Positions 12,801 through 46,838 of a stretch of 64,000 bases of DNA are shown here, piece after piece; position 1 is the stretch's first letter; each line of letters begins with the position of its first letter. The translations under genes and the position numbers were made by a program. Where the stretch lies: contig JADNRV010000007.1 of the NCBI GenBank assembly GCA_015499995.1, positions 248,001 to 312,000 on the forward strand, written 5' to 3'. The notes below the pieces were generated by a model. That model ran no database searches, was not told the DNA's origin, and was given only the letters and a program-made list of their open reading frames with translations. The DNA comes from Flammula alnicola. Taxonomy: Eukaryota > Basidiomycota > Agaricomycetes > Agaricales > Strophariaceae.

Positions 12801-13846
12801 CTAAAACGATGATGGCCTGTAGATACGATTGCGGTTCATCTCAATCGGTTTCCAGTGCGCGGTCATTCGCAGTGCGCCGCGAGGACATCCGCTCAGTGGC
12901 CACCACCCCCTCTCCCTCTCGACGTCATCTTGCGCTTCCAAAAGTTCATCCAAAGCCACTGAAACATGGCCGTAAAGGGCAGCGGGACGTTTGCAGCAGT
13001 GATCTTCACCGTCGACTATTTTGATGACGATGGTCGTCGATGTTTTTTCGAAGCATATGAAATCGAAGGCCGAATTCCACACGGGAGCTTGGCCAGTGAA
13101 ATAAGATGGGGCTGTCACATGGATTGGGGCGTCAGCCCAGCCAAGACTGGCTGTAGCCACCAGCTTGCTAGGTGCTGGTAAATAGTCTTCCCAAATGAAG
13201 TCTTTAGCTTGCTGGATTCGTAACGTGACGATACCCGCGTCTGTTAAATAGAATCGACAATAGTATAGAAGTTCAGTCTGGCCAGATCTGAGAGAAAACC
13301 ACTCACTTGATAGTTGGATTCCTTCCTCGTTCGAGCTGGAAGAAAAGGAGGAGAACAGGACGGGATAATAGAAGACATCAAAGAGTAAGGTCCCCTTCAC
13401 ATCCACTGGGTTCTTCGGGGCATGGATAGCGCGCTCTTCGCCAATCATCCTCGGCTCAACGTCGAGGATCCCAAGAGAGAACGTAGCGAGGCCGATCAAG
13501 CTAGGTTTGATAATCCTGTGCTGGTTCAGAACCTCAAACTCCAGGTTCTCCTGCAGTGAATAAATGATGACGTCCGTCGATTCCGAAAACCAGTTCGGAG
13601 AATGTCTGTACATGTAGCATTAAATTTTTCGAGCCAGAAGGTAAGCACAATTTCGAGTATCTCCAAGGGTCTCTGTGCTCACGTCTTCATGTCTAGTGTT
13701 GTCGTCTGCTGGCGCGCTTCCGGACGACCCCGTGTGCGAATTCGAACGAAAGGTCGAGGTTTGAGCAGCGTTCTCTGAATATTGGCCGCCTGTATCACGA
13801 CTCGAACAGCACCAATGGCAGTCCCGCTGTCATTACGGTCAGGCAT
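12801..13846 (-). CDS. Stand-alone double-C2 protein resembling part of tricalbin
   Basis: Exon 1 (ATG at 13846) gives MPDRNDSGTAIGAVRVVIQA, a C2 start. The second exon continues that C2 (NWFSESTDVIIYSL, LEFEVLNQHRI) and a linker ending in a hydrophobic FDVFYYPVLF. After a short intron a second C2 begins (AGIVTLRIQQAKDF) and runs to WWPLSGCPRGALRMTAHWKP. Order and wording match the first and second C2 domains of the tricalbin gene at 56-62 kb (GVVQIVVYSARG; VGIVRVTIHQAKEL; WFPLSGCKTGKMRLSAEWKP), but no transmembrane hairpin, SMP lipid-transfer domain or later C2 domains are found upstream or downstream. Several acidic calcium ligands appear to be replaced. It is probably a partial duplicate that is still an open gene. 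Function is unknown; membrane binding is plausible. Confidence 0.7.
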
Positions 13847-29050: not shown

Positions 29051-29188
29051 TAACTCTGTTCACTCAATAACTTTGCTGACACGAGAATCCGAAATATGGA
29101 AGATGGACGATAGCAATTTAGGAGAGCGAGTACAAACTAATCGAACATTTGCATACATAAATAATCCAGACGCGAATCCACTGAACCC

Positions 29189-31969
<2,781 letters not shown>

Positions 31970-31976
31970 AATGGCG

Positions 31977-32018
31977 ACGCGTAGGAAGTGGTTAATTGCA
32001 AAACGCGACTAAACGCGT
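31977..32018. promoter_or_regulatory. Two ACGCGT (MCB) elements at the MCM3 start
   Basis: ACGCGT occurs at 31977-31982 and 32013-32018, 8 and 44 bp before the MCM3 ATG, with a partial AACGCGAC at about 32002 between. ACGCGT is the MluI cell-cycle box bound by MBF (Swi6/Mbp1-type) in fungi and controls G1/S genes. Function here is inferred from that precedent. Confidence 0.65.
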
Positions 32019-33501
32019 CAACTCTCGCAAGCATTGTCAAACTTGCGCAAATACGATTCGGCTGACCGGCACAAAAGTGCGCACTGCAATACTGTTACTG
32101 TACAATCATATGTTCCAATTACTCCCGCAGCGGTGAAAATTCAAAAGCCCGCTATATCTCTGGATCATAAGGACCTTTATCCGCGCTCATTCTACCCGCT
32201 CAGCAATGACACGACAGTGAACACTGAAGTCCAAGCATCGGACTCCGGGAGGACACCGTTGACACTGGAAGCAAACTTCCCCATTGGACACACAAATTTT
32301 CCAAGACAATTTTTCTCTCTGACAAGTCTGACGAAATGTCTCTGGGAAATGGAAGAACTGCTTCGCCTCCGCAGCCCTACTTGACTCTCAGGCAACATGT
32401 CTCCTGCCCTCGTATCAGTCGATACACATTTTTCTACGCCCTTGACATTCCACGGACTCAGCATGTCGGGGGTTGTGCCAACGCTTCGATGTCGTTCATG
32501 TTGCTCGTCCGCGCCCGCCAATACCATCGGTCTGAATCGGCCTCCATGTGCACCTCGGGCCCTTGGCTACTCCTCGTCGCAACCTTTGTCATATGAACAA
32601 TCCGTCACTCCAAAATAACATATCTACCCACACGCACGACATTCTTCGCTTCTCTCACCGTTTATCTGTCACTGGCACTGTAATAAGTCGACTCGGAGGC
32701 TAAAACTATGTTCTCTCACCGCCTTGACAAGCACCGTCGCCAATGGATATGATATTCACACACAAGAATGGGTTTGTAGAGACGAGGCCGCTCCCAGATC
32801 CGACCTAATTTCGTTATACTCTTTGTCTCCGAACCTTCGGGAAATGCTATAATGAACCAAAATTGAGGGGGGAAAATACTCGGACCTCCTTAACCCCTCC
32901 TGCACAAGCGTTTCTATCAGCATTAGTAATTACAAAGATATTTCGCCGTTCATATGCTTAATGGAGTACTTGCCACAGTTTTTTAGAAGCCGAGGTTAAC
33001 GCAGCTCATCAGTCCGGCTTTGACGTAGACAGGTTCTTCTGTTCTAGGAATGCCACTTTTGATAACTGTTGATGTGAAGCTGTGTGAGCCTTGTGTCGAT
33101 TTTAGGATTTCTCAACATTCATCTGCTCAACAATCAACCAACTAACTTGGGCATTGAATTGAGGGTGAAAGAAAAAAAGACAAAAGAAAGGAAGTACTAG
33201 GTATACTAAAACAACAGTCTCTTGAAGAAGGATTGTGGGGCTCTACCATAGGCTGGTGAGGAAGAGCCGAAACGAAAATAGAGAGTCAAGGAGCGTCAGG
33301 CAACAGGTCGCCGCAAAATAGAAGTGTGTGGGATGAGGGGACGGATCAATGGCTGCGGGCTTGGTGGGTTTTTGCTGCTCACTAGTCGTAGTAGTAAGCA
33401 CGGAATAAGGCAAGCGTAAACGTCGACTGGCGCAATCGGTCAGTCAATTCGGTGACGTTTAGCTAAAGAAAGGCTAGCTTACGTTGACGCATCATCATCA
33501 A
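32019..33501. other. Intergenic stretch, no supported gene
   Basis: About 1.5 kb between the MCM3 start and the end of the repeat-peptide gene. Frames of 70-116 codons exist around 32,034-32,620 on the plus strand, but none carries a motif or a convincing splice structure. A GA-rich patch lies at about 33,165-33,200. Confidence 0.45.
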
Positions 33502-33816
33502 TCACCAGTCTGAAGCGCGCTCTTCATTCTCTGACCGCCTCCAATCAGAGGCTACGCCACCGCGCGCTTCATTATCCGACCGTCTCCAATCGACACCACC
33601 ACGGGCTTCGTTGTCCGACCGTCTCCAGTCGACAGTTGCACGCGCTTCGTTATCTGACCGCTTCCAGTCGACAGCACCACGAGCTTCATTCTCCGACCGC
33701 CTCCAATCTGAGTTCCCGCGCCTCCAATCCGACTCTCCACGCCTCCAGTCCGAGGTCCTGCCTTCAACCTCCGCGACAGTGTCCCGTCTCCAATCAGAGA
33801 CACCAGCCTCCGCGAC
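33502..33816 (-). repeat. Imperfect coding tandem repeat of the peptide precursor
   Basis: Exon 2 is an in-frame tandem array with unit lengths, including the dibasic pair, of 11, 15, 7, 7, 13, 13, 13, 15 and 10 residues. The central 39-bp units are the most alike (about 80-90 percent identical by eye), with mostly silent or conservative differences, so the array has both expanded and diverged. Confidence 0.85.
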
Positions 33817-33952
33817 CTGATAAGAGAGGGTACGTCAGTTAACTACGGAATACAGCAAGGAGGAGATGTTGAATACGTACAGGGGCAGCTGCCACTGTCG
33901 AGGTCAAAAGGAATAATGAGATTACAGCGAGGTAACGAGATGCAAACAGCAT
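33502..33952 (-). CDS. Secreted Kex2-type repeat peptide precursor (nine Asp-Trp-ending units)
   Basis: Two exons (33952-33881 and 33816-33502, a 64-bp intron between in phase 0) give 128 residues. Exon 1 is a signal peptide ending ...STVAAAP. Exon 2 is entirely repeats, each ending in Asp-Trp: VAEAGVSDW, DTVAEVEGRTSDW, GESDW, GNSDW, SENEARGAVDW, SDNEARATVDW, SDNEARGGVDW, SDNEARGGVASDW and SENEERASDW. The first eight are followed by Arg-Arg or Lys-Arg (seven RR, one KR); the ninth ends at the stop codon. Dibasic sites between units are what Golgi Kex2 protease cuts, as in mating pheromone, epichloecyclin and ustiloxin precursors. Ends of every unit are conserved while the starts vary, as expected for processed products. 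The product is not recognised. No UstYa (DUF3328) oxidase is seen in the window. A TATA box lies 53 bp upstream. Confidence 0.8.
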
Positions 33953-34004
33953 TGCGGTAAGAGGGATGAGGAGGAGTAACTGATGGAGGTCCGCTAACCC
34001 ATTG

Positions 34005-34012
34005 CTTTTTAT
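34005..34012 (-). promoter_or_regulatory. TATA box of the repeat peptide gene
   Basis: ATAAAAAG on the minus strand (within GCATAAAAAGC) lies 53 bp before the ATG at 33952. The leader between is CT-rich. Strong core promoter placement, as for other secreted small proteins. Confidence 0.55.
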
Positions 34013-35454
34013 GCGTGGTTAAGCAAGATCAAATCCGATGGGTCCCGTGTGTCTGGACTCGGGGGAGGGAAACAAGTCAGGCCGTCTTTCCGCATCTGGT
34101 ACTTTGGGCACCCTGTCATGAATTCCCAGGACGGCGTCCTTTTTTTGGCCAGTTCGCAACATGTGTCTCCCAACTGACAGGTGTCGGCACTAATTGTGCC
34201 GTCCGCGAAAATAGATTTTCCGTGCGCTCTCTACGCATGATGGTGCATCATGCGGAGCTGGTCAAGAGGAACATATGTATACGCTGGATCCCAAGACGGT
34301 ATCGCGTTGCGTCCCAAAAGAGCCCAAGAGCAACTGCGGAAACCAGAGAGCGAAACCCGGGAAACCCTGAATACCAAGTAAATCCCAGATCAATGAACGG
34401 TGCCTTGAAATGCTCACACTCACACAGTCTCCTTAAATCAGGGCTTCCTTTCGATCATCGACCTTGCTACTAGAGTTTGGTTGTGCCTTCAGCTTCCTTG
34501 CAAGTTCCGCCTTGAAGAAAGTATATAGTCAGTATGTAAAGCATGCATCCTTGACAATGCTTCATCACCTGATTCTAGCTAGCATGCCAGAGCATCATGA
34601 TGCGATAGAAATCGATGACGCTGTGGCCCATCACAAGGTGCCCCACGTACGATAAACGTCAAGTCCAGTAAAGTCCTCGCAGTTGTGCATTTCAGAAGAA
34701 ACTGATCTTGTCAGAGCCCTAAAGCTTGGGAACGTACTAAGAAAAGGAATTCTTCAAGACAACGTCTTGCACCTGGATATTGCACCTGGATACCTATTCC
34801 AAGTGGAACGATCTTGAGTATTATTGTGAATGTGAAAAAACCATGCCTGTTTCGGACATATTTCGCAACGATGCCTCGGCAGAATGCATCGCACAGAAAT
34901 AGGTATCCTCTAGATTCACACTTGCAGTCAGCATTCATGTTTTGCTGGCGAGATGATTATAGAACATGCCGTTTGTTTACAACATACCTAAATTTATGTC
35001 CGGTAGAAAATTTCAAATATGTCGATTGCTTCCCTCCATTGACTATTGTCTGGAGGACAGCTAAACCGAGACTGCGGAGACCTGTATGACGGTGAGATGA
35101 CGAAGTGACACGCTTGAGATTACTTATCGCAACGTGAAACGATGTCGAAGAGCGAGGTACCTTCCGGCACTAGAAGCACCTACCACACAGATGTAAACCA
35201 AGGAGGAACCGATATCAATAAAATGGAGAGCCTTGACGATCAGTCCACGATGTTCATGGACTTGCTTTGATCCTTCAGGTTCTCTCGATCGTTGGATGGC
35301 TTCGCGGAAGACAGTTAAACTCTCCTTGGGAAGTAACCAACGTGCCAGAACAAGGCCATCGAATTGTTGGTCAGACGGAAATAAGCATGGGGTGCGACCG
35401 GATCATGATGTCATGTTGACTCTACATATGGTGTTACAGATAACTTGGAAAAGA
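34013..35454. other. Intergenic stretch, no supported gene
   Basis: 1.4 kb between the peptide gene promoter and the PRP17 end. A 152-codon plus-strand frame at 34,015-34,473 starts from GTG, lacks any recognised motif and overlaps the peptide promoter, so I do not support it. Otherwise nothing is visible. Confidence 0.45.
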
Positions 35455-37552
35455 TCAATCCTATGGGTCTATTATGAGCGGTATACAAGGGAATTGGAAG
35501 GTTAGAATGCTTACCCAGAGCTTAATGAGACCATCCCAGGATGCCGTGATGACCTTGGACTAGAGAAGAAAGAAGTTAGATGTAACGGGGTGATCAGAGC
35601 ATTCACTAAAACTCACAGTATCATGAGGAAGCCACTCGTGGGCGATAACAACCTTTGAATGTGCTTTCAAACGCGACTTAATGCGCCCTGTCTTCCAGTC
35701 CCAGAAGACGACGTTTCCTTCTCCGTCTCCACTGCTGATCCATTTTCCGTCCGGGGAGAAACCGACTTGACAGGCATAGCCTGCAACTGAATGACCTGCA
35801 AACCGCTTCTTGCGATTCTGCCGGAAGTTATCCGTGCTATAAATCAGGATTTGATTATCAAGCGACTGCGCGGCGAAATATTTTTCTGTTGGGTGATGGT
35901 CAGTCTCTAGTTCGGCTTATGATCAGAAAAAAAACCAGGACTTACTTGACGGATGCAGAGTGACGGCTGGCATGGAGTGCATGTGAGGCTCAGCGATATA
36001 TTTAATCACGACCGGAATGTCGAAGTCCCAAGCTCTTATTGTTTTATCGTCCGAGGTCGTAACAAAGCGGCGGTTCTCATCAACGAAGGTGATAGTGTTT
36101 ACTGGCCCAAGATGTTGGTCGTACTCTTGAGTGATTTCTCCAGAATTAATATCGTACTAAAAGTACAAGATGAGGAACCAATTCATTTCATTTCATTAAT
36201 GAGTAGAAAACTCACTTGAATGATTTTTTTGTCGGACATTCCGGCAAGGAAAATATTTTGCTTGTCTTCGTCGGGATGGAAACGGATAACATAAGGGATT
36301 TTGCCGTTGCTGAATCGCTTCAAACATTGTCCAGTTTCTGTATCCCATAATTTCATCTGGCGGTCATAACCGCAAGAAAGAAACCGGCGACCGTCGTTGG
36401 AGAAAGAGACGTCTTTCACAGCTTTTGTATGGCCATGGAACGTTCTCAAGCAATTTCCATGAGTATAAATATCCCAAAGCTAAAATATTCATGTCAGGAA
36501 GCTAAGAAACGGGCAGGCTTGGCAAAATACTGACCTTGATCTTGGTGTCCATGGAGCCACTCAGTAGCAGATGCCCTGTTTCCGGGAAGGTGCGAATGAC
36601 TGAGACGCCCTGTGTATGGCCCGTCCATGTATGCACACAAACTTTGGGAATGAAACACTCTTGCGAGCCAGCCTCCTGCAAGAGGTTCGGATTTTCTGCA
36701 ATAGGAGGAGACATATATGTTCGGCCTTGGTAATCAGTCATAGATTTGCCATGGAATACCGAATATTCTTGGGCATCGATGCCGCGTTTTGGCTTCCCTT
36801 TCTTTGCGATAGATTGCGGCTCCGGCTCTTCTTCCTCCTCCTCTTCTTCGTCACCTTCGCCCGTGCCCTCCAGTCCTGCCAAGAAATGTTGTTGTGGTTC
36901 TTCGCCTTCCCAAGATGCCCAAGGCCCGACATATGCGCCATCACCGTCGACAACTGACACGTCGCCTTTTTGCTTTCGCTTTCGCTTCAAATCTCGTTTT
37001 TGATCTCTTGACGCGCGGAGGGTATCGATAGTGGCGAACTTGTTCGCCTGTGCATTGTCAAAGGATCCAAGGATAGCGGGTGCATTTGGGTCTATGGATG
37101 GATTGGCGGAGTACCCCAAAATTGAATGTGTTAGATGCTGAGCTCGGAAGGCATGCTCAGACATGGATTGCTCTTCTACATGCCCAGCCAACGCGTTTTG
37201 ATTCTTGAAGCGACTTCTGTCACCAAACGGGTTTTCTGGTCCTTGAATAGGGAGAATCATATCTTGGTATGGTATGTTCACGTTCATTTGTGTGTCACTT
37301 GGACGAGTGACCAAAGACGTCATGTTCAAAGGATCCTGAAATTCATTAAGTAGACATATTCGACGATGGAATGCCATTGTTGCTTACCTCCGCCAGAACA
37401 TGAGGGGCAGGATCCGCGCTGGTCGATTCGGACTGCGCTTCGTCAACGCGAGCTTTCTTCGCTACTGGAAGGGCAGACAAACCGAAGGCATCATTTTTCA
37501 CCGACATTATAACATCGTCCTCGTCGGAGGAATAAGATATTGGAAGCGACAT
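35455..37552 (-). CDS. PRP17: Pre-mRNA splicing factor PRP17/CDC40, WD40 protein
   Basis: Prp17 joins the spliceosome for the second catalytic step. The ATG at 37552 gives [16 protein letters not shown]. The N-terminal half has [52 protein letters not shown], an acidic run and [18 protein letters not shown], then [22 protein letters not shown]40 repeats follow over five exons: [100 protein letters not shown] and [15 protein letters not shown]. The last coding exon holds one codon plus stop: a 54-bp intron ends at 35461 and joins Asp-TGA (35460-35455), restoring the usual KLWD end. It starts 226 bp from the divergent Myb gene. Confidence 0.94.
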
Positions 37553-37778
37553 ATGTACTCCGGTGAATGCGCGATGATGGAAGCGCTACACCAAGAAATA
37601 TAAGTAATAGGGAGCCAAGGGAGCTGTAAGGACTACAACTTGCCGATGTTGTATTTTGGAATGAAGTCACAACGAGTCACTCTGTTACGCAGCCGTGACC
37701 TGTTACCGTTTACAGCCTTGCTGGGGCTTCATGTTCTCCGAGTCCCGAGTCTAAACTCACAAGCACTGACATGATTTT

Positions 37779-40188
37779 ATGACTCCTGAGGCCATGGCTG
37801 AAAGAAACATTAGTCGACCGTGGTCAGAAGAAGAAGGTATTGTCTTTATAATTTCTTTCTTCGTTGGTTCCAATATTAATTATGTTTCTCTACAGACCTT
37901 CAACTAAGGCAGGCTGTTGCCCTCTACGGTGAGAACGATAATTGGAAAATCGTTGCCCTTGGGGTACCTGGCCGAACTAACAAGGCTTGTAGGAAGGTAC
38001 GTCAATATATGTCCTATATCATGCAGAATCCAGTGGATCTTATTTTTCTTATTTTATCTTATTATCATCCCATTTAGCGGTGGCTACACTCCCTTCAACC
38101 AAATGTCAAGAAATCAGCCTGGACACCAGGCGAAGATGAACAACTAATAGAACTTTATGAAACATATGGCCCAAAGTGGTCTGCCATTGCGCGACAAATA
38201 CCTGGCAGAACAGACGATGCCTGCTCAAAACGCTACCGAGAAGCGCTCGATCCAAACCTGAAGAAAGATCAATGGACTCCGGATGAAGATGAGCGTCTCA
38301 TGGAAACTTACAATCGCATCGGGGGGAAATGGGGACAAGTGGGTCATGAATTGCAACGCAGTGGCCTAGGTTGCAGAAACAGGTTTGTTCCCACATTCTA
38401 TGGGGATGAGCGGGCCCTGATCACTGTAACAGGTGGCGTCTATTGGAACGCAAAAAAGCTTCTCGGTCATCTCAGCATTCAACTCCTGAACAAACTATCG
38501 ATACGCAAGAAAATCTAGCGCCTTTGGAAGAGGTTTCCCACCACGAAGCCACCCTGGATTTTCAACACTGGCCACCTTACTATCCACCTGAAGCATATCC
38601 CACATTTCCTACAGATGAAGACTCTAGTACTGTGCGCACCTTTCGTGAACCGACGCCAGCAGCATTGGACATTCCAGATCCTAACGTGGCTCCATTTCAA
38701 TTTTCCTCATCATCACTCAGTGCCGCACTCTCCGATCCTCCCCGGCCACCGCCTCCATTACCCCCGGTCAGCGTCAGTAACACTCCAGAGCTCCTGGTTC
38801 AGGATATCCCAAACGATCCCGAACGACAGCCTTCTCTTTCTCCTCTTTCCCAATATAACGGAATCCCAGAGATGAATGACGTCCTGATGGCGCTGGACGA
38901 CTATCCACAAGAACCTATGGATCAACGGAATTTGGAGGCCTCTATAACTCAACTACCTTACGACCCCGATACTTTCAATATTGGCCGACTATCTGATTCT
39001 AGTTTCTACACTTCTGCTTCGCCCATCTTCATCCCATCTGAACTTTCTCGAACATTTGATCCTCTTCAATTTAGCATTTGGAAGCCTCGGACGGTCCCGG
39101 AAATCGACTTTGATAATTCTCCTCGTAGTATTGTTGATAGCCATTCGATATTGAATGACGGCCATGACGATTTATCATCAGCATCATCGACACCATTTAT
39201 ATTCTCCACACCTTTGTCACCCAACTCTAGCCCAAATCCTGGGTCCCTCATGGATTTACCTAATGCTGAGCAGCCGTCTTTGCTATTCGCTCCTCCGAAT
39301 GAATCGCATTTCAATCACCTTCGTCGTACAAGGAAGATAAATTCAAGAAAACCTAAACCCTCGATGAAGATTAGCCTTGCCACTCGACTTTCTTCGGTAC
39401 TGCCTCTGGAGTACGTATTTATTATTATTCTTCCTGATATCACTTTATTTAAATGCTTTTTGGTTTACAGTCCTAATCTTCGCCCGTATGCTTGTGGGCG
39501 CCCAACTTGCTGGCCTGCCGGTGCAACAACAAGCCACAACTGTTTTAGCACATCTGGAGAATTGCTAGATCATAGTAAAGACCAACACTCCGAAGAAGAA
39601 GTTGCTGAAAAGCCGTATCGGTGCTCATTGCCTGGCTGTGAAAAGTCTTGGAAGGTTTGTCGTTTGCTTTCATTCTGTAGATGATCTCATAATTGTTTTC
39701 TCCTGGTTTTCGCAGTCAATAAATGGCCTGCAGTATCATCTGCAAATGTAAGTTTTCTTAATGTCGACCTTCTGTCTCGGGTACTCTCTCTGATATATGA
39801 CGTGGTTATTAGATCCACGGCACACTTTACGCGTGCACTCTTTTCCAGATTTTCTGCACAGCAACCCGGTACACCCGACCAAAGTACTTCCTCTTTAAGC
39901 CCAGAGGAAGTAGAAGATTCAGAACCGGAACGCAAATATGCTTGTCCTCGCCCAGGTTGCTATAAAGCATATCGTCAGCCGAGTGGTTTGCGGTACCATG
40001 TTAAATATGTCAGTCATCTCTTACGTGGTTCTGACTTCCATTTTCTCACAAAACTTGTCATGCCACAGGGCCATCCGCTTGATATGCCTGCTCAACTTTC
40101 TGTGGTACCCCCTGCGTTAGAACGCCAAATACCCACCAAAGCCAAGAAACTACGAGCGAAGCCTCCACCCGAAGCGACAGCTACCTGA
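37779..40188 (+). CDS. Three-repeat Myb protein fused to Sfp1-like C2H2 zinc fingers
   Basis: The ATG at 37779 gives MTPEAMAERNISRPWSEEED. Three Myb/SANT repeats follow: WSEEEDLQLRQAV...CRKRW, WTPGEDEQLIELYETYG...CSKRY and WTPDEDERLMETYNRIGG...CRNRW, each with its tryptophans. A long Pro/Ser-rich region of about 300 residues lies in one exon. The end carries cysteine/histidine pairs: RPYACGRPTCWP...H...H, YRCSLPGCEKSWKSINGLQY-H and YACPRPGCYKAYRQPSGLRY-H-VKYGH, then GHPLDMPAQL. The G-C-x-K-x-Y...G-L-x-Y-H form and the GHP ending resemble Sfp1 zinc fingers. Both parts bind DNA, so this is a transcription factor, target unknown. At least six introns interrupt it. Fusion is supported by a continuous frame through the large exon. 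Confidence 0.82.
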
Positions 40189-44043: not shown

Positions 44044-46838
44044 CTAAGACCAGGTAGAGGGCCCAACGAAACCCGATGCGGGTAGGGGTTTAAATGGCAT
44101 GCCGTTCGCATCCGCTGTATTCATCCATACACTGCGAAGAAAGAAAGAGAAATCAGCAATTGTTGGAGCTTGCGGACGACGAATAGAGAGAGACTCACGT
44201 ATTGCCCCACCAGTTGAGCTGAATGCCGCCCGTTTTGGCCAATCCCAATGCGAAGAAGATCACAATCGTAGAAAGCGCGACGCCAGCGTCGAGAGCTGCA
44301 GAGAGGATGTAGTTGTATCGCATCCACCATCTGAAGTGGAAACGGCGGATGACGTAGTTGAAGATGAAGCCCCAAAGCACCCAGGAGATGTAGTTGATTC
44401 CAGAGGCGGGTGGCATGGCACCGAGGCCGGCGAAGAAGACAGGGACGTTGATGTAGCGCCAGATGGACAGAGGCCATTTACGAGCGGCAAGGTAGAAGGG
44501 GATGGGGGCGAGGATGCCGATGGGGAAGAACCAGAGCAAGCCAGAGTATCTGAATCGCAAAAGAGTAAGTGACTGGATTTTTGGGAAGATAGAAGTGAAA
44601 CTTACGGAGCTCCAGGGCTGAAGAGACGACGCGGTCCGACAGCTCCCCAGATGACAGACGCAGTCGCAAATGTAGTAGATCCTGGGCATATGAAGCCTTG
44701 CTTCTGTCCGGGCGTGCAGATATCTTCGATGTTGTTCAACATCCAGTCCTGGATGACAGTAACCCAAATGCAGGCAATGACGGCTGCGACAACCTGAACC
44801 GAGAACATCATGCGAGGAGGGACCTTCATGTAGTGGCCAAGCTTGAGATCGCCTGCAAAGTTGATGGCCTGGTTGCAAGTAATGAACGCGATCGTCTTGA
44901 AGCACACGTTGGCAATGGGGCGTCCAGGAATCATGTAGCCGGCAATAAGTTCGTACATCACCTGCGTTGGCACTTGCTGATTGGTGATAGCCTGCAGCAT
45001 GGAAAGGGGGATGGCGAGGATGAAGGATAAGAGGATACCGACAACGGCGGCCCAGATAGGCAGCTGGGTTGGGAAGATCTCGATGGAGATGCAGAAGAAC
45101 GCAAAGGCGATGGCGCCAACGATGGCGTACCACCACATAGGGACTTCAGGGTAGTATTGCATGAGACGAGCGTGCACATCGCGTTCGTCCTTCAAGGTGT
45201 TACGGAAGCGACGGACGATATCCTTGCGGAACCACAAGAAGGTGTGGACGAAGACAGATGGGAATGCTGCGAAGGCGATACCGCACGCCAGGGCTTGCGT
45301 AGTGGAGATGAAGACTGGCGAATATGCTGCGTATTTGACAGGATCGAAAATGCCGTTAGTGATGATTTGCGAGGCCTGATACATGTTTCCAGTGTTATCG
45401 AACGAGATAATGGCAGAAATCGGGAAGTAAGCTGCGTTCCAGACATTGGTGACTGAAATAGGGTTGTTAGACTCGGATAAAATGGAGTAGACATAATTGC
45501 TCACAGTAAAGAATGGGAGCAAAGATCCAAAACATGAGAATGAAGGCAACACCCGTGTTCATTTGTGACCACCACTGTGAATCGTAAAATCAGAAACCGA
45601 AAGAATGTAAGCAAGCGAGAAGACGCACTGGTGTTACAAGAGGGCTGCCGATGAAAGCAATCATAGACCAGTCGAAAGTGAGGACGCTCATTCCCAAGCC
45701 GGTGTTCGTTCCGAACAACGCATTGACGACGACGTTGTTAGGAGCGATCCAGCATACCCAGTTGAACATGCTCAAGGCCGTGAAGAGATATCCCGGAACC
45801 CAATACCAAATAAAGCTACAGGCCATGGCGATGCAGAAGAAGCGTTCACGGGTCATGTGGCCACGGTCGCGCTTGCCATAATTTTTGTGGAGGGTGTTGA
45901 ACAAGGCGGAGTTGACCAAGGCGCCGGGCCAGATCATGCTTGATGGCCAAACGACGAATTGGCGCAACAAGCCACCGAGGGAGAAACCGAGAATTTGGGA
46001 GCCGAGGGCGAGGAGCAATTGGAAGCTCATTGGAGTGTTCATGCCATAGAAAACGCGGGCGGTAAGGACGACCTCGGTCGAATAGGCACCTCCGACAACG
46101 ACGTTGGCCATAACTGTAATGCAGACGTGCTCCTTGATGGAGAAGGGACCCGGGTTGAGCGACCAGACATAACCGAAGGTGTTGAAGCGTGTTGTGGGAA
46201 GGACAGCTGCAAGTCCCCGACCAAGAGGAAGACAGACAAGCTGGGCAACGATGCCAGTGAGGTAAACGGAGGGGTCTGATAAATTGTTGTGAGCACAAGG
46301 CAGACGAAGACATATAAAATGACGTACAGCGCATAGAGAAAATTTGATTCAAACCCGAACTCAAGAGAACGAAAATAATACCCAAGAACCACATGCGGAA
46401 TGTGTTGACAGGCATCAACGGATCGTCAACGCTTGAGACTGAAGCTCGCACTTCTGGGTAGGGCGATTCACTGTTGCGCAAGGGGTCAGAAATAAAAATA
46501 CCAGAAAGTGGACGTATAACCTACTCGTCAAAATCAATGGCGGTCGAATTTCTTGACTCCGCTCGTGAAGTTGAGTACCGATCAGAGTCCAGATGAGACT
46601 CGGCGTCGACGTCGGATGAAAGCCATTGCTTTCCGCCCTTCTTCTCTTCGGTTTTTTCGACAGAGACGAAGGAAGGAGGGCGAGATAAGTTGTAATTGGG
46701 ATCATTCAAGTGCTCCATGACGAAGTCGACGTCCTCTGGAACGTCGGGAACATTGCGGACACGCATTTCATTAGCTTCGATTCCGTCGACAGATTGGAAT
46801 CGCTCAGTCGAAGAAGTGTAAGGTCTAGCCTCTTCCAT
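44044..46838 (-). CDS. OPT-family oligopeptide transporter
   Basis: OPT proteins carry tetra- and pentapeptides or related compounds into the cell with protons. The ATG at 46838 gives an acidic cytosolic N-terminus (MEEARPYTSSTERFQS, VPDVPEDVDFVMEHLNDPNY). Then come DDPLMPVNTFRMWFLG and many membrane segments: YLTGIVAQLVCLPLGRGLA, GYVWSLNPGPFSIKEHVCI (the conserved NPGPF motif), GSQILGFSLGGLLRQFVVWP, FCIAMACSFIWYWVPGYLF, DWSMIAFIGSPLVTPW, IPLSMLQAITNQQVPTQVMY and INVPVFFAGLGAMPPASGIN, with the end KPLPASGFVGPSTWS at 44044. Eight or more introns interrupt it. The motifs and length are those of an intact fungal OPT; the substrate is not predictable. Confidence 0.93.

Follow-up and report, generated by a model that had tools for sequence, protein, structure and literature searches.

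What is made from a short fungal gene whose second exon is a run of nine units that all end in Asp-Trp (DW), and what could their common end be for? The question arises at a locus of Flammula alnicola, within a stretch of 64,000 nucleotides that was analysed as a whole and is called the window here. A first-pass annotation had read this locus as a Kex2-type repeat-peptide precursor of an undescribed kind and had attached weight to the C-terminus that its units share. In our analysis, the gene very probably encodes a KEX2-processed repeat protein (KEP; Le Marquer 2019, PMC6339444, defined the class), with linear peptides ending in -DW as its predicted products.

The precursor gene and its nine units

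The gene lies on the minus strand from window position 33952 to 33502 and reads in frame from ATG to stop over 128 codons. Minus-strand translation bore out what the first-pass annotation had claimed of its coordinates, its frame, its single intron and its nine -DW units, and the start of the protein is signal-peptide-like. As had also been claimed, eight of the units are followed by RR or KR and the ninth runs from -DW directly into the stop codon. All features listed here are on the minus strand.

33502..33952, minus strand: KEP gene, precursor of 128 amino acids, from translation; identical in the second haplotype on contig C87
33881..33952, minus strand: exon 1, 72 nt, signal-peptide-like MLFASRYLAVISLFLLTSTVAAAP, from translation and hydropathy, with a putative cleavage site
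33817..33880, minus strand: GT-AG intron, phase 0, 64 nt, GTACGT...CAG, with a branch-point-like CTGAC motif, read from the nucleotides
33502..33816, minus strand: exon 2, 315 nt including the TGA, nine DW-ending units, eight of them followed by RR or KR, then the stop; from translation
33790..33816, minus strand: unit 1, VAEAGVSDW, with the XA dipeptides VA-EA ahead of GVSDW
33745..33783, minus strand: unit 2, DTVAEVEGRTSDW
33724..33738, minus strand: unit 3, GESDW
33703..33717, minus strand: unit 4, GNSDW
33664..33696, minus strand: unit 5, SENEARGAVDW
33625..33657, minus strand: unit 6, SDNEARATVDW
33586..33618, minus strand: unit 7, SDNEARGGVDW
33541..33579, minus strand: unit 8, SDNEARGGVASDW
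33505..33534, minus strand: unit 9, SENEERASDW, which runs to the stop codon

The A of the branch-point-like CTGAC stands 18 nt upstream of the 3' site, and the intron is needed, since the unspliced frame stops within it. Exon 1 reaches a best 11-residue mean hydropathy of 2.4, and it is by its sequence and hydropathy that it is called signal-peptide-like; both the signal peptide and the splicing are thus predicted. A Pfam search with the precursor returned no family at E 0.1. The C-terminus is ASDW and the precursor has no Cys, i. e. the CaaX end of an a-type mating pheromone is absent.

With at least three like repeats separated by KR, RR or KK as the mark of a KEP, the gene offers nine units and eight RR/KR pairs. 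By the mark of Trp-ending cores (Vogt et al. 2022), all nine units end in DW, eight of them ahead of RR or KR. RR follows seven units and KR one (unit 5). In the 104-residue body, which contains nine Trp, all eight dibasic pairs are directly behind DW, and none of 20000 shuffles of its residues reached nine sites (mean 0.06, maximum 2). Elsewhere in the six frames of the window DW[KR]R occurs only once, isolated, near 13446. The sequence gives good support to the reading as a Kex2-type repeat-peptide precursor. The units end in SDW (6/9) or VDW (3/9), and six of them (2, 5, 6, 7, 8 and 9) contain a single internal Arg that is followed by 4-7 residues. XA pairs (VA-EA) are present only at the start of unit 1, directly behind the signal peptide; an STE13-type XA or XP start is absent from units 2-9. 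The predicted peptides have 5-13 residues and a side-chain net charge of -1 to -3.

Units 5-8, four of the nine, were compared with two codons of unit 8 dropped for alignment. The codon differences, summed over pairs so that one change may count several times, were 27 synonymous versus 14 non-synonymous. Third positions took 37 of the 50 pairwise nucleotide differences, and NG86 dN was 0.11-0.15 versus a dS of 0.65-0.97 in four of six pairs with defined dS. Thus the variation among these units is mostly synonymous and at third positions, as coding sequence predicts. An alternative reading is that the dibasic pairs escape cleavage, which would leave the repeat protein whole, or that the frame is no gene at all. 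The signal-peptide-like start, the intron, the mostly synonymous variation and the related precursors described below argue against it, and we regard it as very improbable.

In the assembly (74.4 Mb, 861 contigs), the second haplotype of the locus is found on contig C87, which matches window 29060-38569 at 98.8% over 9.5 kb. Over the 451 bases of the KEP gene the two haplotypes show 0 differences. Divergence between the two haplotypes is patchy, with about 2% across a WD40 gene and zero across 33500-34499 and 31000-31999. Because 31000-31999, compared as two 500-base blocks, is likewise free of differences, the identity of the KEP gene is weak evidence for constraint, and it was rejected as a sign of selection. 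The following genes are found around the precursor.

About 30.5-32.0 kb, minus strand: MCM helicase gene, Pfam match at 30511-31179, the rest by eye
About 35.6-37.4 kb, minus strand: WD40-repeat gene, Pfam match at 36505-37383
About 44.2-46.4 kb (44249-46406), minus strand: OPT oligopeptide transporter gene, by Pfam, 10-13 kb from the precursor

Related precursors in the genome

A whole-genome protein search with the precursor, at E up to 10, found two places only, the window and C87 (four exon matches). Hence two other precursors with Trp ahead of [KR]R escaped that search. The first of them is on contig C347 and was found when the genome was searched for the pattern DW-[KR]R. It extends over C347 22903-23518 in three exons and has 162 residues with eight Trp-[KR]R sites, of which four end in DW, one in EW and three in PW (PPW). 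Trp stands ahead of eight of its ten [KR]R pairs; the two Trp-less pairs are upstream. In BLASTP, the precursors encoded in the window and on C347 were 27% identical over 137 columns with an E of 1e-9, a value from a single comparison that is inflated by composition and repeats. Contig C214 is the other haplotype of this locus, with a one-base length difference in the assembled repeat region that shifts the frame versus C347.

A search with the broader pattern Trp-[KR]R gave at least 118 matches versus 23 for the reversed control. The census of such precursors covers some overlapping runs, picked by eye among the matches listed up to C667, and is thus a lower bound. The third precursor is located on C290 (ATG at 92626, minus strand), and a copy at C505:2170-2426 is known from pattern matches alone. 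The C290 gene was read in two parts, from the start to the first donor site and in the repeat exon, where Trp stands ahead of all eight [KR]R pairs. Its units, e. g. EAEAEADPTPPSW and DAAPTPPGW, end in PGW, PSW or PAW and show STE13-type XA/XP runs. A first donor site of phase 0, just behind the signal-peptide region, is common to all three precursors.

Several other candidates for DW repeats were discarded. A pair on C235 lies in a chance frame without further repeats, and on C257, C545 and C744 the stretches that matched contain a stop as judged by eye. A candidate on C401, which came from the broader Trp-[KR]R pattern, proved to be a frame of acidic MEET repeats rather than of WRR.

The three precursors end in DW, in DW/EW/PPW and in PGW/PSW/PAW, respectively. 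Because of this, Trp directly ahead of the predicted Kex2 site is their constant, and Asp is variable. The idea that the shared C-terminus matters gains from the two additional precursors as far as Trp is concerned; its extension to Asp does not hold in general. What is new here are these two further Trp-[KR]R precursors alongside the window KEP, and among them the C347 protein, in which DW and PPW ends occur together. With three precursors of this kind, the genome leads to a concrete hypothesis, namely that the Trp is recognised, and they supply a small set of synthetic peptides with which to test it.

Predicted processing and possible roles

In a profile search the kexin P-domain, the only part of kexin searched for, gave six matches on four contigs above the family cut-off. 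DPPIV_N gave nine matches on three contigs, for which we infer an identity as STE13. The signal peptide would route the precursor into the secretory pathway, where kexin would cleave behind the eight RR/KR pairs. A KEX1-type carboxypeptidase would then strip the basic residues, leaving nine linear acidic peptides with a common C-terminal Asp-Trp, and STE13-type removal of XA/XP pairs (VA-EA) would shorten unit 1. Expression, cleavage, trimming and secretion of the window KEP are all predicted steps.

Possibly, the six long units are also cut behind their single Arg. Products of yeast-expressed KEPs were apparently cut after a single Arg (PMC9769878); for the window KEP such trimming is a tentative and somewhat doubtful proposal. 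All nine peptides would then have 4-7 residues and end in [SV]DW (GVSDW, TSDW, GESDW, GNSDW, GAVDW, ATVDW, GGVDW, GGVASDW and ASDW). If real, it would account for units 3 and 4, which have no spacer.

As to their role, we see an even chance that the -DW peptides act in signaling or biotic interaction. The C-terminal Trp would be the element that is recognised by a receptor, a transporter or a partner organism; it is proposed for this part since the related precursors all have it in common. Vogt et al. propose biotic interaction as the role of KEPs (PMC9769878). In the experiments described there, six kep knockouts of Coprinopsis cinerea, including that of the Trp-ending 490115, had no detectable phenotype and thus lend no support to a signaling role, and synthetic peptides had no antibacterial activity (PMC9769878). 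A more far-reaching and rather unlikely interpretation is that the mushroom KEPs with DW ends and those with Pro-Pro-Trp ends belong to a single ancient family of peptide signals that act outside mating and are recognised by their C-terminal Trp. In its DW form, single-Arg cuts would replace STE13 trimming, and the nine units would come to the same size of 4-7 residues. This interpretation comes from the co-occurrence of DW-only, PGW/PSW/PAW-only and mixed DW/EW/PPW precursors, the mixed one of which links the published kinds.

The other possible roles are compatible with the reading of the gene as a KEP. A RiPP, which the first-pass annotation had listed as an option, has lost weight. In a dikaritin-type RiPP, UstYa/DUF3328 oxidases would cyclise the units through Trp. 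The precursor plan is the same, and UstYa is present in the genome with at least 23 matches on 10 contigs in an exon-level search. However, none of these matches is on C667, the 679-kb contig to which the window belongs, and none is on C87, C214, C347, C290 or C505, which disfavours this role. Nor do the nine units contain Tyr or Phe, for which Trp could possibly substitute. According to Umemura 2020, of 1680 basidiomycete KEPs no more than 103 (6.1%) have a DUF3328 gene nearby (PMC7329392), and the comparable -AADW peptides are linear or minimally modified (PMC9769878). All in all we consider a dikaritin-type product very unlikely.

Elsewhere in the genome, four close UstYa (PF11807) matches each were found at C767:76-84 kb, C852:133-142 kb and C177:43-52 kb. 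These groups are possible dikaritin-type clusters.

It is also unlikely that the units are structural peptides which build up a layer or fibrils at the surface of the hyphae, in the way of Ustilago maydis Rep1. Rep1 peptides are longer and more hydrophobic; the units of the window KEP, with their 5-13 residues and net charge of -1 to -3, are short and soluble-looking. What this role has in its favour is the KEP plan, as Rep1 is a KEP with amyloid-like fibril-forming peptides (PMC9769878).

A mating signal like the alpha-pheromone, read by an STE2 receptor, would share the Kex2/STE13-like plan and the C-terminal Trp, which recalls the 'PCW' end that is well conserved among Sordariomycetes, Fusarium included (PMC6339444). 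In basidiomycetes, however, a-type pheromones serve in mating (PMC6339444), and the precursor is without Cys. The genome gave no STE2 matches, an absence that is unproven since control genomes also gave none, and instead 43 STE3 matches on four contigs. We regard a mating role as very unlikely. STE3-type receptor matches occur several in a row at C712:58-74 kb and C457:143-163 kb, likely a mating-type receptor region on two haplotypes. The multiple STE3 copies, the STE2 search that gave no match here or in the controls, and the two diverged haplotypes suggest that the fungus is a dikaryotic basidiomycete, presumably one of the mushroom-forming Agaricomycetes.

The OPT gene suggests a special case of the signaling role that we prefer, in which the Trp-ending peptide would be secreted, imported by the transporter 10-13 kb away and act inside the cell. 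Qsp1 likewise has a C-terminal Trp. In Cryptococcus, Qsp1 needs Opt1 and, by inference, acts once imported, but it is matured extracellularly by Pqp1 and not by Kex2 (PMC7537855). Moreover, OPT is common in this genome: an exon-level search that scored 71 of 87 candidates gave at least 84 matches on 20 contigs. Among the listed matches none is on C214, C347 or C505, and on C290 about 220 kb separate the precursor from the nearest one. Thus no general link between OPT genes and Trp-[KR]R precursors emerges, the position of the OPT gene near the window KEP is probably coincidental, and a Qsp1-like route is quite unlikely.

Comparison with known repeat-peptide precursors

The survey of Umemura 2020 counted 7878 KEPs, with 5.30 per basidiomycete strain (PMC7329392). 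According to Vogt et al., BLAST finds many basidiomycete KEPs with a C-terminal Trp (PMC9769878). Products of some were detected by mass spectrometry: SGTGEASAADW from KEP 2599 of Lentinula edodes (shiitake), which has seven repeats; SGVAADW, MSGVAADW and LSGVAADW, all ending in -AADW, from Pleurotus (the oyster mushrooms P. ostreatus and P. eryngii); and peptides ending in -PSW from culture fluid of C. cinerea (Vogt et al. 2022, PMC9769878). The first-pass annotation had called the precursor undescribed as a kind and had known of no acidic units ending in Trp. Since -AADW KEP peptides had already been detected in shiitake and oyster mushrooms, this claim of novelty falls. The class, i. e. Trp-ending KEPs with a DW sub-kind, is already known, and the gene itself is a new member of it. 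The literature we found names no function or receptor for Trp-ending mushroom KEP peptides; our searches of the open-access literature found, by title and abstract, no later functional work on such KEPs.

Among the more distant systems, the dikaritins (ustiloxin, phomopsin, epichloecyclin) have a KEP-type precursor as here. They differ by an UstYa oxidase gene nearby and usually a Tyr in the core, neither of which was found for the window KEP. Ascomycete alpha-pheromone precursors resemble it in their signal peptide, repeats and Kex2 sites and, in some cases, in a C-terminal Trp. Unlike the window KEP, they have STE13 dipeptides and Cys in the cores of the PCW groups. Their receptor is STE2, for which this genome gave no match in a search that was silent in the control genomes as well. 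U. maydis Rep1 is a basidiomycete KEP like the window gene but gives rise to fibril-forming surface peptides. C. cinerea KEPs 490115 and 447393 (QYKAPSW, QMRPPSW, GPPAPSW; PMC9769878) combine the KEP plan with a C-terminal Trp, as the window KEP does. Yet with their -PSW ends they are closer to the third precursor, on C290 and C505, than to the window gene.

The nearest known systems, judging by the published peptides rather than full sequences, are L. edodes KEP 2599 and Pleurotus KEPs 1091723 and 1439342. Like the window gene, these are Agaricomycete KEPs with dibasic-cut repeats that give short -DW peptides. A likeness of unit 8 (trimmed to GGVASDW) to the oyster mushroom peptide SGVAADW is not significant, as 7055 of 20000 shuffled sets do equally well. 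Three differences stand beside the common plan: the L. edodes and Pleurotus peptides end in -AADW, whereas those of the window KEP end in [SV]DW; the Pleurotus KEPs carry STE13 dipeptides ahead of their cores, whereas the window KEP has an XA run in unit 1 only; and, unlike the sequences reported for both genera, the window KEP has a single Arg within its long units.
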